Of a stretch of 20,760 bases of DNA, positions 6,805 to 16,592 are shown one piece after another. Origin of the DNA: a virus. The stretch spans positions 1 through 20,760 of IMG/VR virus record IMGVR_UViG_3300020477_000165. One strand, 5' to 3'. Position 1 is the stretch's first letter. Each line of letters starts with the position of its first letter. The notes under the pieces were generated by a model. The model had not been told where the DNA came from, searched no databases, and was given only the letters and a program-made list of their open reading frames with translations. A program made the translations under genes and the position numbers.

Positions 6805-6820
6805 TATAAATATAACTACA
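6805..6820 (+). promoter_or_regulatory. T4-type late promoter
   Basis: An exact TATAAATA octamer at 6805-6812, in an AT-rich intergenic stretch just after the end of an operon and 46 bases before the SleB-like gene. T4-like late promoters consist essentially of this -10 element, read by the gp55 sigma with gp33 and gp45. It is the only exact copy I found in an intergenic region. Confidence 0.65.
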
Positions 6821-8512: not shown

Positions 8513-9223
8513 ATGAAGACATTTAATTATGATCTACTAGAAAATAAAAAAGATTTAATCGAACAAGACAATACAGGATCAGATAGAGTATATCATGGGC
8601 CGAATGGTACTTATGCATCGGTCACGAATATGTTGTATTATATGATCACTAAACCAGGCATTGATGCATGGAAAGCAAAAATAGGGGAAGAAGAGGCTAA
8701 AAAAATATCAACGAGGGCTGCAAAACGTGGAACTCGTATTCATGGATCTATTGAAAAATATTTACGTGGAGAAGAAAATTATTTTGAAGGCATTCCACAC
8801 GAAAATAGAGAACTCATTAAATTGGGATTATCTGAAATTGATCAAAGAATAGATAATATTCGTGGAATTGAACTTTCTATGTGGTCGGATGATCTCCGTC
8901 TTGCAGGAACTACTGATCTGATTGCAGAGTATAATGGAGAACTGGCCGTCATTGATTGGAAAACTGCAACATATATTAAAAAGGAAGAGTATTTACGTTC
9001 ATATATCCTTCAAGGAACTGCCTACAGTAGAATGTTGTATGAACTGTATGGAATGATCCCCAAGAAGATTGTTATATGTTCGTTTATAAGATTTGATTCA
9101 AAAAAATATAATCATATGATGGATCAAGATATTTTTATTGATTGGAGAGAGTATAATCCATTGGACTATATTCGTGAACTTAAATCGATTTGTGATGCAT
9201 ATCATTTCAAAAACAAGGAATGA
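8513..9223 (+). CDS. PD-(D/E)XK exonuclease (RecB/Cas4-like fold)
   Basis: 236 residues from ATG 8513 (an in-frame TTG at 8507 is also possible). Nuclease motifs in order: RGTRIHGSIEKYL (72-84) supplying the first acidic/His region, LAGTTDLIAEY with Asp135, AVIDWKTA with Asp148 and Lys150 (D-x-K), and LQGTAYSRMLYEL with Gln167. This is the arrangement of Mg-dependent RecB-type nucleases such as the phage YqaJ/Cas4 group. Probable role: DNA end resection in recombination-dependent replication or breakdown of host DNA. No Shine-Dalgarno sequence lies in the usual place; the only purine-rich GGTGGAG is buried in the hairpin 26 bases upstream. Confidence 0.8.
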   Translation: MKTFNYDLLENKKDLIEQDNTGSDRVYHGPNGTYASVTNMLYYMITKPGIDAWKAKIGEEEAKKISTRAAKRGTRIHGSIEKYLRGEENYFEGIPHENRELIKLGLSEIDQRIDNIRGIELSMWSDDLRLAGTTDLIAEYNGELAVIDWKTATYIKKEEYLRSYILQGTAYSRMLYELYGMIPKKIVICSFIRFDSKKYNHMMDQDIFIDWREYNPLDYIRELKSICDAYHFKNKE

Positions 9224-9231
9224 GATAAATA
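9224..9231 (+). promoter_or_regulatory. Possible late-promoter-like element before the tmRNA
   Basis: GATAAATA differs at one base from the T4 late octamer TATAAATA and lies directly after the exonuclease stop, about 10-25 bases before the first tmRNA-like pairing segment. A transcript starting near 9236-9240 would begin at about the right place. AT-rich sequence makes chance matches frequent. Confidence 0.3.
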
Positions 9232-9301
9232 TTTATGGTATTGATGAGGTTGGTGAAATAAACTAGACAGGACGCCAGTTCGATTCTGGCCGCCTCCACC
9301 A

Positions 9302-9411
9302 AATACATAGGAGCAGATGAATGACACAAGTAGATTGGCATTGTGGACATTATTCATCGTTGTAGTTGTTATTTTATTAGAATTTTTAGAAATGCTTACT
9401 GTGTAATTGAT
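9302..9411 (+). other. Intervening spacer of the permuted tmRNA
   Basis: This is the segment between the encoded CCA (ending 9301) and the first base of the 5' acceptor strand (9412). In known permuted tmRNAs this spacer closes the acceptor stem of the precursor and is removed by processing (RNase P at the 5' side of the coding piece and 3' processing at CCA), leaving two RNAs. At 110 bases it contains a complete small reading frame. Confidence 0.8.
9317..9406 (+). CDS. Possible 29-residue membrane microprotein inside the tmRNA spacer
   Basis: ATG 9317 to TAA 9404-9406 lies wholly inside the tmRNA spacer. The peptide starts MNDTSRLALW and continues as an unbroken hydrophobic run (TLFIVVVVILLEFLEML), a plausible single transmembrane helix. 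AGGAG at 9309-9313 is only three bases before this ATG; a second ATG at 9321 in another frame has ideal seven-base spacing but gives only 14 codons. The spacer would be cut from the tmRNA precursor, so the frame could be translated from the precursor, the excised RNA or read-through transcripts. No homologue is recognised, and it may not be translated. Confidence 0.35.
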   Translation: MNDTSRLALWTLFIVVVVILLEFLEMLTV

Positions 9412-9614
9412 GGGGGCGAAAATGGGTGATCGACTGATAGAGATAAAGACCAAAGGAGATACCCAGTTGAGCCACGACTGTGAAAGTGCAACCATAATAA
9501 TCGCAAACAATGCTGATTATACACCCGCATCTTCTTATGCACTTGCTGCATAGTAGATAGCCGAGTTGGTGAAAGCCTGGGGAAGATCACTTGGGAACAG
9601 AAGAATCTTCCCCA
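9412..9614 (+). ncRNA. ssrA: Coding piece of the two-piece tmRNA
   Basis: Runs from the 5' acceptor strand GGGGGCG through the D-loop analogue, PK1 region, resume codon and tag to a ten-pair hairpin, TGGGGAAGAT (9578-9587) with ATCTTCCCCA (9605-9614), with a 17-base loop. The sequence just before the resume codon, TAATC-GCA, parallels TAGTC-GCA of E. coli tmRNA. A P5-like stem, CTTGCT (9542-9547) with AGCCGAG (9559-9565, one bulged C), encloses the tag stop codons, as expected. The true 3' end may lie a few bases beyond 9614. Confidence 0.8.
9503..9556 (+). other. tmRNA tag-peptide frame
   Basis: Starting at the resume codon GCA (9503-9505), the frame encodes ANNADYTPASSYALAA followed by two TAG stops. 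The start AN and the end YALAA match the normal tag form, the latter being the ClpXP/ClpAP degradation signal. At 16 encoded residues it is longer than the ten of E. coli. Confidence 0.88.
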
Positions 9615-9637
9615 CTACACACTTAACGGAAAGTAAA

Positions 9638-10015
9638 ATGGCAACTAGAAAAAACCGAATAGGTGATGATAAAATTAATACTGAAACCGAATTTATTGAT
9701 AGTTCGGAAGAAAAATTATGGGAGCAAAATCCAATGGAAGCATTGAGGTATGAGAAAATTGAAACAAGAAAGAAGTTGAATTGGTGGGCACGTTTTTCTT
9801 TGTCACTTATTGTAGTACTTACTTTTTTGTTTTTAGTATGGTTATTGTTTTATGCAGAATTGCCACAAGCAAGTCGCGATCTAGTGAATATCATGGTTGG
9901 AGCCTACGTAGCTGTTCTTGCTAAGTCAACCGATTACTGGTTTAAAGATAAAGATGATCCTGAGCAAAAGGAAACTGAAAATGTGTCACAAAATGGAAAT
10001 AATGACACAATTTAA
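9638..10015 (+). CDS. Two-helix membrane protein, holin candidate
   Basis: 125 residues from ATG 9638, with GGAAAG seven to eight bases upstream. The N-terminal 49 residues are charged and hydrophilic, followed by a transmembrane helix at about 50-72 (WWARFSLSLIVVLTFLFLVWLL), a short loop and a second hydrophobic segment at about 82-101 (LVNIMVGAYVAVLAKSTDYWF), then a hydrophilic tail. The second segment, with Gly-Ala-Tyr near the middle and Tyr-Trp-Phe at the end, resembles small phage holin-like membrane proteins, but I cannot assign a family. It lies about 2 kb from the SleB-type hydrolase. Lysis is one possibility; another inner-membrane role is equally open. Confidence 0.7.
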   Translation: MATRKNRIGDDKINTETEFIDSSEEKLWEQNPMEALRYEKIETRKKLNWWARFSLSLIVVLTFLFLVWLLFYAELPQASRDLVNIMVGAYVAVLAKSTDYWFKDKDDPEQKETENVSQNGNNDTI

Positions 10016-11835: not shown

Positions 11836-13971
11836 CTATCCTACTCTGGTGAGAAAATCACCATACCTGCCGGTCAATTCTGGGCCGGCAGCGTTTATCA
11901 CTCTTGGTGCTTGATTAAGTGTTGACTGTCTAACACTATTATCAATTTGATTTACTACTACAGGTGGTGCAGTTCTTTCACTTGCTGAAATACTTTCCAT
12001 TTGTTGTTGATTCATATATGCACCAGTTTGAGGTGCAATGGTATTCCATTTACTATTATCCCATTTAATTTGTTTTTCCAAATATTTAAAAGATGTTCCT
12101 TCTAATACATTCTTTAATCGTGCTGAAGCTTCATTGTCAAAATAAATTTCTTCACCATGTGCAATAGTTTCCATCGGCTCCCCTTTTTTGCCTGGAACTA
12201 TTCCTCCGTATCGCATACTCAACTTAGTTTTATGCATTTTTTGAGTTAGAGCTATTTTTTCTTCTCTAGACATATTATCTAAATCAGCTCTAGTATGTCC
12301 TAATTGTTCAAGTTTCAATTCATCTTTTAGTTTGCCAGTATCTGTATCTACTTGAATTTGTCGCATCGGATTGTAAATAGAAACTCCGTTATTTTCCCAT
12401 GAAAGTGCTTTATAAAATGCTGCCCAATCTTCATTGTCTCTAGGTTGTCTTGTCAACCATGTTTGAGTGGTTGCTTTACCAGATTTGTCATATGTTGTGA
12501 CTTTGGTTGCTGTTCCTGTTCTAGTAGTTTGTGTTTTACGATATTTTTGAATTGCATCTGGATCATCAAGAGCCGCTCTTTCTTCTTCGAGTCCTTGTAA
12601 TGTTGTTTCTAATCCTGCTGTATCAATTCCTCTCCCTTTTCTGTCTTTTATCATCCTTTGATAATGTTTGATATCGGTATCCAAGTTGTCTTTATCTTCT
12701 TGGAGTTCTTTTTGAAAATCACTTTCATCTTTCTCTTTTAAACCAAGAAATTTCAATATATTATTAAATTTATCTTGAATCCATGCACCAACATCATCAA
12801 TTGCTTTTGCAATTTTATCTCCACCAAAATATCCTAAGATACCACCTAAAATTGCACCACCAATTCCACCTATTAGTGCGCCAACAGGGCCACCCATTTT
12901 TAATCCTATCAAAGCACCAGCGGAACCCATTTTTAATGCATTAAAAGCAGCATTTAATCCACCGCCTTCACCGCCGCCAAGAACTCCACCTAGAATAGCG
13001 GAAAAGTTTGATACTTTCCAATCATCTGCTTTAAAATAACCCAAAAGACCATCAATTAAAAATCCCACAATTGGGACGCCTAAGCCTCCTATTTTAGCAA
13101 ACATTCCTGCACCTTTTAGAACTTTCAATAAGTTTGCTGTTCCTAAAAGGTTCTTGCCTTGTTTTAAGAAAACTGCTTTTAGATTTCTGAATAGATTTGT
13201 CAATAGTCCTTTTTTACCAGTAAAGAGAGAAATCAATCCACCAATTCCTCCCAATTTTCCTGTTAACCAACCTGTCCAAAAACCTGGGCCACCATCTTCT
13301 TCCATCCCCTTTTCTTTTCCAAATTTACCTACAACTGCACCTCCTGCCTTTTTTGTTTTTTGCATTCTAAGTCGTTCTCTTCTCGACTCTGCATCTTCCA
13401 TGTTTTCGGCAATATATTTAACATGATCCCTAATTTCGCCTAAGAGTCCACCTTCACCACCTTGACCAGTTAATTCATCATTTAATTCTGCAACTCCACC
13501 AGCCTGTTCTATTTCTGTAACTTTGGCTTCACCACCATTCTTCTTGGTATTTTCTGAAATAGTTTCAGTAGATTCTTCAACTCCTTTAATTGAATCCAAT
13601 TGAGATTGTGCAACATCAAGTGTGTTTTCCGTAGCTTCAAGGTTGTCTTCATTGTCTTTTGATCGTTTAAACCATCCAGTAGTAAAAGAAGAAACAATTC
13701 CACCTAGAGGCCCAAAAGATTCATTAATGAACCCATCAATGCCACTCATTACCCCATCTTTCATATCTTGGAGATTTTTTACTAAATCACCACCTAAAGA
13801 TCTATCTTGTTTCTTTAAACTTTCAGTAGCTTTTACTAGGGCCAATCTTTGTTTTGCAGATCCTTTTTGTTGCTCAAGGATTTCTGAAATATCCTTTGCA
13901 ATTTCTGCTCTACGTTTTTTTAAATCCTGTTCCACCTCTTCTTGGGCAGATTGTTTATCTATTATAGCCAT
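11836..13971 (-). CDS. Tail tape measure protein (gp29 analogue)
   Basis: 711 residues; ATG at 13971 with AGG overlapping the upstream stop. Architecture: charged coiled-coil N-terminus (about 5-60), a Ser/Glu/Gly-rich middle with further coil (105-210), a hydrophobic Gly-rich region (about 240-390, for example GPVGALIGGIGGAILGGILG) that can form membrane-inserting helices, a second coil (415-470), and a C-terminal SMRYGGIVPG...IAHGEEIYFDNEASARL motif with a Gln/Asn/Val-rich tail. These are hallmarks of tape measure proteins, which set tail length and help DNA cross the inner membrane. It is directly downstream of a gp26-like gene with a frameshift extension, the standard place for a tape measure gene. 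T4 gp29 has 590 residues, so a longer tail is expected. Sequence similarity to gp29 itself is not obvious. Confidence 0.75.
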   Translation of the reverse strand: MAIIDKQSAQEEVEQDLKKRRAEIAKDISEILEQQKGSAKQRLALVKATESLKKQDRSLGGDLVKNLQDMKDGVMSGIDGFINESFGPLGGIVSSFTTGWFKRSKDNEDNLEATENTLDVAQSQLDSIKGVEESTETISENTKKNGGEAKVTEIEQAGGVAELNDELTGQGGEGGLLGEIRDHVKYIAENMEDAESRRERLRMQKTKKAGGAVVGKFGKEKGMEEDGGPGFWTGWLTGKLGGIGGLISLFTGKKGLLTNLFRNLKAVFLKQGKNLLGTANLLKVLKGAGMFAKIGGLGVPIVGFLIDGLLGYFKADDWKVSNFSAILGGVLGGGEGGGLNAAFNALKMGSAGALIGLKMGGPVGALIGGIGGAILGGILGYFGGDKIAKAIDDVGAWIQDKFNNILKFLGLKEKDESDFQKELQEDKDNLDTDIKHYQRMIKDRKGRGIDTAGLETTLQGLEEERAALDDPDAIQKYRKTQTTRTGTATKVTTYDKSGKATTQTWLTRQPRDNEDWAAFYKALSWENNGVSIYNPMRQIQVDTDTGKLKDELKLEQLGHTRADLDNMSREEKIALTQKMHKTKLSMRYGGIVPGKKGEPMETIAHGEEIYFDNEASARLKNVLEGTSFKYLEKQIKWDNSKWNTIAPQTGAYMNQQQMESISASERTAPPVVVNQIDNSVRQSTLNQAPRVINAAGPELTGRYGDFLTRVG
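11847..11891. terminator. Two hairpins at the gp32/tape-measure convergent junction, possible bidirectional terminator
   Basis: TGGTGA-GAAAA-TCACCA (11847-11863) and CTGCCGG/CCGGCAG (11867-11891, 11-base loop) stand side by side, 15 bases after the gp32 stop and within the last codons of the convergent tape measure gene. Neither has a convincing T-run on either strand, so termination is a guess based on position. Confidence 0.35.
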
Positions 13972-16142: not shown

Positions 16143-16592
16143 TTATTTATCTGGTGTTAGTTGTTTTTCTGTCATTAATTGAAAAGTCCATCCCTGTGCA
16201 TTACATACTGTTTTTGCAGCCTTCCATTTTGCTTCATTTATCAACCAAGTTTTAACAGCCTTGTTGTATCTCCTTTTTTTCTTTAATGTAAGAGTTTCAA
16301 CAACAAGTTTCTTTGGTGGTTTGGTTTCTATTTGAGGTTTAACTTCAATAAGAAACCATCCTTTTGAAGTTTGAATCAAAAAGTCGGGAAAATATCTGTG
16401 TCGTTTATTATCTATGGGGGAAATATAAGGTATGACAATTTCTTCACTACTCCATTGAAGACATTTTTCATCTGAATCACACCATTTCATGAAGCGGTAT
16501 TCCATTAAACTACGATAAATAATATTAGTTGGATTCCCTTTATATTTTTGGGGATTCTTAATTTTAAATTTACCTTTATAGCGTTTTCTCAT
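16143..16592 (-). CDS. 4: Head completion protein gp4 (TnsA-like nuclease fold)
   Basis: 149 residues, the same length as T4 gp4 (150). Matches in order: KGKFKIKNPQKYKGNPTNIIYRS (T4 SGKWVPKNISKYRGDPKKITYRS), E31 and MKWCD, LQWSSEEIVIPYISPIDNKRHRYFPDF, FLIEVKPQIETKPP (T4 FFIEIKPKKETQPP) and a KWKAAKTVCNAQGWTFQLMTEKQL tail. D70 and E83-x-K85 form a PD-(D/E)XK-like site. gp4 is needed for head completion after packaging and before tail joining. The start codon overlaps that of the divergent gp48 gene by two bases, an in-frame stop lies eight codons upstream, and no Shine-Dalgarno sequence is seen. Confidence 0.9.
   Translation of the reverse strand: MRKRYKGKFKIKNPQKYKGNPTNIIYRSLMEYRFMKWCDSDEKCLQWSSEEIVIPYISPIDNKRHRYFPDFLIQTSKGWFLIEVKPQIETKPPKKLVVETLTLKKKRRYNKAVKTWLINEAKWKAAKTVCNAQGWTFQLMTEKQLTPDK

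Follow-up and report, generated by a model that had tools for sequence, protein, structure and literature searches.

Two-piece tmRNAs are already known in marine T4-like phages. They were described in 2022 for phage Melnitz, and 53 two-piece forms were counted among the 402 tmRNA-bearing phages in 18,146 phage genomes (PMC9004378). The permuted gene (Rfam RF04321, tmRNA_permuted, and RF01849, alpha_tmRNA; e.g., Caulobacter ssrA) runs in the order acceptor piece, intervening sequence (IVS), coding piece, with a G3-U70 acceptor stem, P2 pairing, a tag ORF and an alpha-type 3′ hairpin motif, and in the alpha model the IVS is a short linker of ~30 alignment positions. In the parts considered here, a 2025 survey of 97,179 tmRNA sequences describes permuted IVSs with a tRNA-Ala gene or a repetitive element, and homing-endonuclease genes in tmRNAs of the group I intron type, with no mention of a protein gene in a permuted IVS (PMC11915505). 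Nor did we find, in the open-access literature, a permuted-tmRNA spacer described as containing a protein gene.

The DNA analyzed here is a 20,760-base virus record (the window), a T4-like marine phage contig whose permuted tmRNA gene has the order and the elements listed above. Its IVS differs from the alpha linker, and from the hairpins of other phages, in being a 110-nt protein gene. With the intron-type tmRNAs, as those parts of the survey present them, it shares a protein gene in a tmRNA segment that is lost from the mature RNA; however, there the segment is a self-splicing intron in the T-loop with an endonuclease, whereas the phages described here have a permuted-gene IVS, a peptide of 28-60 aa and no intron. 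The tRNA-Ala and repeat cases, as presented there, also have extra IVS content, but this is an RNA gene or a repeat in unique cases, neither a protein gene nor recurrent. The two-piece tmRNA itself is an already known kind in such phages, and the IVS protein gene is the new part. A sequence-only reading of the window had rated the novelty of the tmRNA too high, given the 2022 publication, and its description contained neither the 110-nt spacer (9302-9411) nor the coding content of this spacer.

A permuted tmRNA gene in a T4-like phage

The sequence-only reading had assigned the window to a T4-like phage, and the gene context bears this out. Upstream of the tmRNA lie T4-type gp45, gp44, gp62 and regA, a dUTPase, an endolysin and a PD-(D/E)XK exonuclease (ending at 9223), and downstream lie a protein of no assigned family, gp33 (late transcription coactivator), gp59 and gp32. 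The closest annotated phages by gp32 are marine cyanophages (~56% identity). The gene order matches that of Pelagibacter phage HTVC008M (NC_020484) and Methylophilales phage Melnitz (MZ577097), both of which have a permuted tmRNA in a region with nuclease, gp33, gp59 and gp32 genes, and the position of the window tmRNA between the exonuclease gene and gp33-gp59-gp32 is the same syntenic site. The IVSs differ, HTVC008M having a 49-nt hairpin and Melnitz an unlike ORF in a 142-nt IVS, with no stop before the cut and annotated only as part of SsrA. A DNA similarity search with the tmRNA region against the phage collection gave no match, and a first pattern scan for tmRNA gave none either. Elsewhere in the window, positions 11836-13971 (minus strand) encode a 711-aa protein with no PHROG match and a Pfam RTX match below threshold only; the HTVC008M gene in a comparable position is annotated as a putative tail tape measure.

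Positions 9237-9613 gave a full-length match to the tmRNA_permuted model with 96.2 bits (E 6.5e-18; curated Rfam cut-off 47 bits) and to the alpha_tmRNA model with 66.7 bits (running to 9611; cut-off 50 bits). ARAGORN called a permuted tmRNA* at 9208-9644 with the tag ANNADYTPASSYALAA. Both programs had been named as checks by the earlier reading, which had placed a permuted tmRNA at 9240-9620 with its 3′ half before its 5′ half, and both agreed with it, as did direct reading of the letters.

All elements lie on the plus strand. The acceptor piece (3′ half, 9237-9301) comprises a P2 strand, the T-arm (by direct reading, T-stem 9274-9278/9286-9290), the acceptor 3′ strand CGCCTCC (9291-9297), A73 (9298) and an encoded CCA (9299-9301). 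It is followed by the IVS (110 nt, 9302-9411), which has no counterpart in the mature two-piece tmRNA, and by the coding piece (5′ half, 9412-9613), with the acceptor 5′ strand, D-loop region, P2 strand, tag ORF and 3′ hairpin. The two pieces, of ~65 and ~200 nt, are close to the ~60 and 205 nt expected beforehand. The acceptor 5′ strand GGGGGCG (9412-9418) forms the seven pairs with the 3′ strand that had been proposed, including G3(9414)-U70(9295), and the anticipated P2-type pairing was located between GGUAU (9237-9241) and AUACC (9459-9463). The tag frame, correctly read beforehand as starting from GCA, extends over 9503-9556: it starts at 9503, codes for ANNADYTPASSYALAA to 9550 and ends in a tandem TAG TAG stop (9551-9556). 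A 3′-terminal hairpin, GGGGAAGAT...ATCTTCCCC, was read directly around the alpha-tmRNA-like motif ACUUGGGAACAGAA (9579-9613), in the region into which the alpha_tmRNA match runs. The named tmRNA elements are all present, far above chance expectation, and we conclude that the window gene is a phage-borne permuted (two-piece) tmRNA gene of a T4-like phage.

Two protein-based scans of viral contigs provided 118 loci, including the window itself, and ARAGORN reported 68 permuted tmRNAs in them. The covariance model detected tmRNA in further relatives where ARAGORN gave none, so a missing ARAGORN call was not counted as a missing gene. With further scans, the set grew to 171 distinct permuted tmRNA genes in which the acceptor stem has 7/7 pairs. 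The 5′ strand was placed by best pairing, which favours 7/7, and the evidence is hence the covariation between stem types rather than the 7/7 count: GGGGGCG/CGCCTCC, GGGGCTG/CAGCTCC, GGGGATG/CATCTCC, GGGGGTG/CACCTCC and GGGGCAG/CTGCTCC were all found among the 171 genes. In the T-stem, four of the five positions vary in these genes, with pairing almost entirely kept and many compensatory changes. Tags ending in ALAA or AIAA are conserved among the relatives, and nearly every relative with a contig across this syntenic site has kept the tmRNA there. Loss of the acceptor pairing or of the tag frame in relatives, which would have spoken against the earlier reading, was not what these genes revealed; the acceptor stem, with its compensatory changes, and the tag ends are kept. 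One viral contig (L179:1387-1725) has a match to a standard one-piece tmRNA in place of the permuted form. The scan of genome contigs yielded a single contig, from a Saprospiraceae MAG (L182; DKPS01000154.1, 5545-5976), with a phage-like tmRNA and IVS ORF of the D type described below; the likely explanation is a phage contig that was assigned to the bacterial genome during binning.

Small genes in the intervening sequence

The window IVS is almost exactly one small gene. An ORF with ATG at 9317 and TAA at 9404-9406 (plus strand) encodes 29 amino acids, MNDTSRLALWTLFIVVVVILLEFLEMLTV, with one predicted transmembrane segment (KD19 hydropathy 2.53), and a Shine-Dalgarno (SD) sequence, AGGAG, lies at 9309-9313. 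By itself, such an ORF arises in 4.6% of shuffles and could be due to chance; hence, the case for coding rests on the relatives. In the group to which the window belongs (group A), pN/pS was 0.33 (P 5e-4), compared with 0.60 and 1.12 in the other two frames of the same alignment, and the third-position test gave P 0.038 with interior codons only. A degenerate-pattern scan for the group A peptide (MNDTSRL) revealed that every copy found in viral contigs sits in a tmRNA IVS. A divergent relative with a different acceptor stem (L370) also has a MNDTSRL peptide inside its tmRNA IVS. An open frame filling the IVS, an SD sequence and purifying selection on the protein were all found for the nested gene. 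These results suggest that the IVS of the window is a small protein gene conserved as coding sequence, whose expression and function are predictions.

The same arrangement recurs in related phages. In the T4-like set (loci L001-L182), 45 of the 46 distinct IVSs of at least 80 nt are one full-length ORF, whereas dinucleotide shuffling of these 46 gave 6.0 on average and 12 at most (200 shuffles). In other phage lineages (L183 on), the corresponding count was 23 of 51 IVSs, against 3.4 expected, and 15 of the 23 have no stop before the IVS end. An SD match of at least 4 nt precedes 40 of 68 IVS ORFs (~7% expected). The ATGs lie 3-20 nt after CCA, most of them 7-19 nt, and the stops lie 1-17 nt before G1 of the 5′ piece, the presumed RNase P cut.

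Substitutions counted along minimum spanning trees, and pooled for groups A-F, fell on codon positions 1, 2 and 3 as 159/123/279 (P 8e-16), and as 49/27/101 (P 8e-11) when only interior codons outside the terminal stem were taken; such counts are only approximately independent, and the ORF groups were defined after inspection of the data. The pN/pS values were 0.11 for group C (P 2e-16), 0.19 for group D (MEKKL type) and 0.22 for group B2, and were uninformative for subgroup B1, which has three sequences only. Group G gave 22/10/51 by codon position (third-position P 1.5e-7). In group F the third-position excess was modest (P 0.023; interior P 0.11, MFKWL subgroup).

At least six unrelated peptide groups are found among the IVS ORFs. 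Groups A and B (MNDT.../MDDT...) are perhaps related to each other; C is MDGHDILL..., D is MEK..., E is basic and carries ...HEHFNKDWDADLWD, F is MFKWL...YLSG..., and G is a membrane peptide of 38-47 aa. Hydrophobic peptides with a single predicted span make up groups A-D and G, but not E and F. The group G peptide overlaps a first, acidic ORF, and its stop is 1 nt before G1. In eight loci with IVSs of 159-186 nt (L276, L287, L294, L303, L320, L340, L346 and L359), the IVS apparently contains two ORFs that overlap: one is short and acidic (e.g., MVIEMLGDSDEEPSSKK...), and the other encodes a conserved ..WSICAD.. membrane peptide of 38-47 aa, with its TGA 1 nt before the 5′ piece. When ten IVS peptides were scanned against Pfam and PHROG, no family was matched with a convincing score, and none of the peptides was linked to rescue factors of the ArfA type. 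The Melnitz isolates themselves aside, no IVS peptide was found outside a tmRNA in phage records. Identical tags are paired with different IVS types, e.g., ANFFAANNSDYSPARVALAA with D, with C or with a short IVS, and close relatives have IVSs of 13-26 nt that lack an ORF (the ORF-less spacers of some relatives span 13-50 nt). Hence, gain, loss and exchange of IVS content are not tied to the remainder of the tmRNA.

The ORF of the 142-nt Melnitz IVS, MFKWLSKTRLVVITRDYFRERNRKADAKIPKYLSGTRSVYD, continues past the presumed RNase P site, and the records of all four Melnitz isolates give no annotation other than SsrA for this region. In its relatives with IVSs of 120, 121, 158 and 166 nt the ORF is likewise open across the site, through in-frame length changes. 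This ..YLSG.. ORF runs without a stop into the coding piece at L187:5984-6436 (MZ577097, 45984-46436) and at L188, L194, L205, L207, L213, L218, L296 and L319. Translated from an excised spacer, an ORF of this type would be a non-stop message, which we regard as a lead and not as a result.

Candidate promoter and predicted fold of the precursor

The element GATAAATA (9224-9231, plus strand) immediately follows the stop codon of the exonuclease gene and precedes the 5′ end of the tmRNA by 13 nt. It is a T4-type late-promoter-like element with one mismatch to TATAAATA, the -10 element of T4 late promoters. In the AT-rich window, copies with one mismatch are not significant alone, so the late-promoter assignment relies on the relatives: of 164 distinct regions upstream of phage permuted tmRNAs, 102 have an exact TATAAATA at a fixed distance, compared with 0.3-0.4% of shuffled ones. 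No sigma-70 promoter above chance was found for the window tmRNA. Transcription starting close to 9237 would place the tmRNA and the small gene under one late promoter. Other copies of TATAAATA/GATAAATA in the window (6805-6812, 16514-16521, and 16144-16151 on the minus strand) are a short distance ahead of the endolysin ORF (6831) and, in the tail/baseplate region, of a pair of divergent genes, which fits late promoters. The authors of the Melnitz study placed its tmRNA behind an early promoter (PMC9004378). In the Melnitz sequence, a TTGACA-17-TATAAA overlaps TATAAATA, and early and late promoters could both be used there.

In all 98 IVSs of at least 80 nt, the predicted terminal stem is stronger than that of shuffled ends, and ORF-less IVSs are visibly hairpins too. 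Where an ORF is present, as in the window (fold z -2.4, a prediction), the 3′ end of the ORF is predicted to pair, within this stem, with the SD sequence and often with the start codon as well. Such a location of the SD and start could reduce translation, and the modeled stem suggests that translation and tmRNA maturation may compete.

A proposed shared precursor for a rescue RNA and a small protein

We consider it probable (about 0.85) that, in this permuted tmRNA gene of functional appearance, the spacer has become an exchangeable small-gene site, the precursor serving also as the mRNA of a membrane peptide. The late-type promoter at 9224-9231 would start a transcript at ~9237, the tmRNA halves would pair through the acceptor stem and P2, and RNase P and 3′-end processing would remove the spacer to give a two-piece tmRNA. 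With host SmpB, this RNA would rescue stalled ribosomes and add a tag ending in ALAA, and by inference the phage tmRNA would keep ribosomes recycling, while the precursor or the excised 110-nt spacer would double as mRNA for the 29-aa single-span membrane peptide. A single RNA would thus give rise both to the rescue RNA and to a small, late membrane protein, and related phages would use the spacer as a cargo site that is either without a gene or occupied by one of several small genes unrelated to each other. What the computation shows is the anatomy of the tmRNA, the ORFs with selection on them as coding sequence, and the promoter motif of the relatives; we infer late expression, processing, translation and the membrane location of the peptide. 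A role in lysis, at the membrane or in exclusion would suit a late membrane peptide, and is a guess.

An ordinary phage permuted tmRNA, in which the spacer is an AT-rich linker that does not code and is maintained because of its terminal stem, with ORFs due to chance, would account for the stem in all long IVSs, for ORF-less spacers such as the HTVC008M hairpin, and for the window ORF, which alone is not improbable. It hardly accounts for full-length ORFs in nearly all long IVSs of the T4-like set, the third-position enrichment in interior codons, the SD enrichment and the low pN/pS in several unrelated groups, and we hold it to be very unlikely. Even less credit is due to the proposal that the tmRNA is a remnant of a past gene capture from a host, with the small ORFs as passengers. 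Phages are known to carry tmRNA fragments, and the alpha_tmRNA match suggests an alphaproteobacterial host origin; yet the acceptor, T-arm, tag and stop codons are intact under covariation in 171 distinct genes, the late-type promoter motif keeps a fixed distance, and the gene is held at its site in nearly all relatives that cover it.

An unlikely reading, but one to be taken more seriously than these two, is that the IVS ORF acts mainly as a regulator, with translation and tmRNA maturation mutually exclusive on one RNA. With SD and start 7-20 nt from CCA and the stop adjoining G1, ribosomes on the ORF would block folding and processing, and when free ribosomes are scarce the RNA would fold and mature into tmRNA. 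The ATG-CCA and stop-G1 distances are within a ribosome footprint in all groups, and the SD and start are predicted to pair with the ORF's 3′ end beside the RNase P site. However, the peptides are hydrophobic and their amino-acid sequences are conserved, which argues that the product matters, and the terminal stem is present in ORF-less IVSs too. More tentatively still than the cargo-site reading preferred here, and at low odds, the spacer may be a recurrent cargo site on a two-state precursor that gives peptide when translated and rescue RNA when folded and processed; in this speculative scheme a Melnitz-like excised spacer, with no stop before the RNase P site, would be both a non-stop message and a substrate of its own tmRNA.

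The spacer of phage two-piece tmRNAs was previously treated as waste, and here it emerges as a conserved, exchangeable coding site, so that one precursor would serve as mRNA and as tmRNA. Annotation pipelines overlook such small phage proteins as a class, and do so even for the isolate Melnitz. Coding in the spacer makes translational control of tmRNA maturation a testable question. While these phages infect abundant marine bacteria, rescue of ribosomes may go together with expression of a small protein, in most cases a membrane protein.
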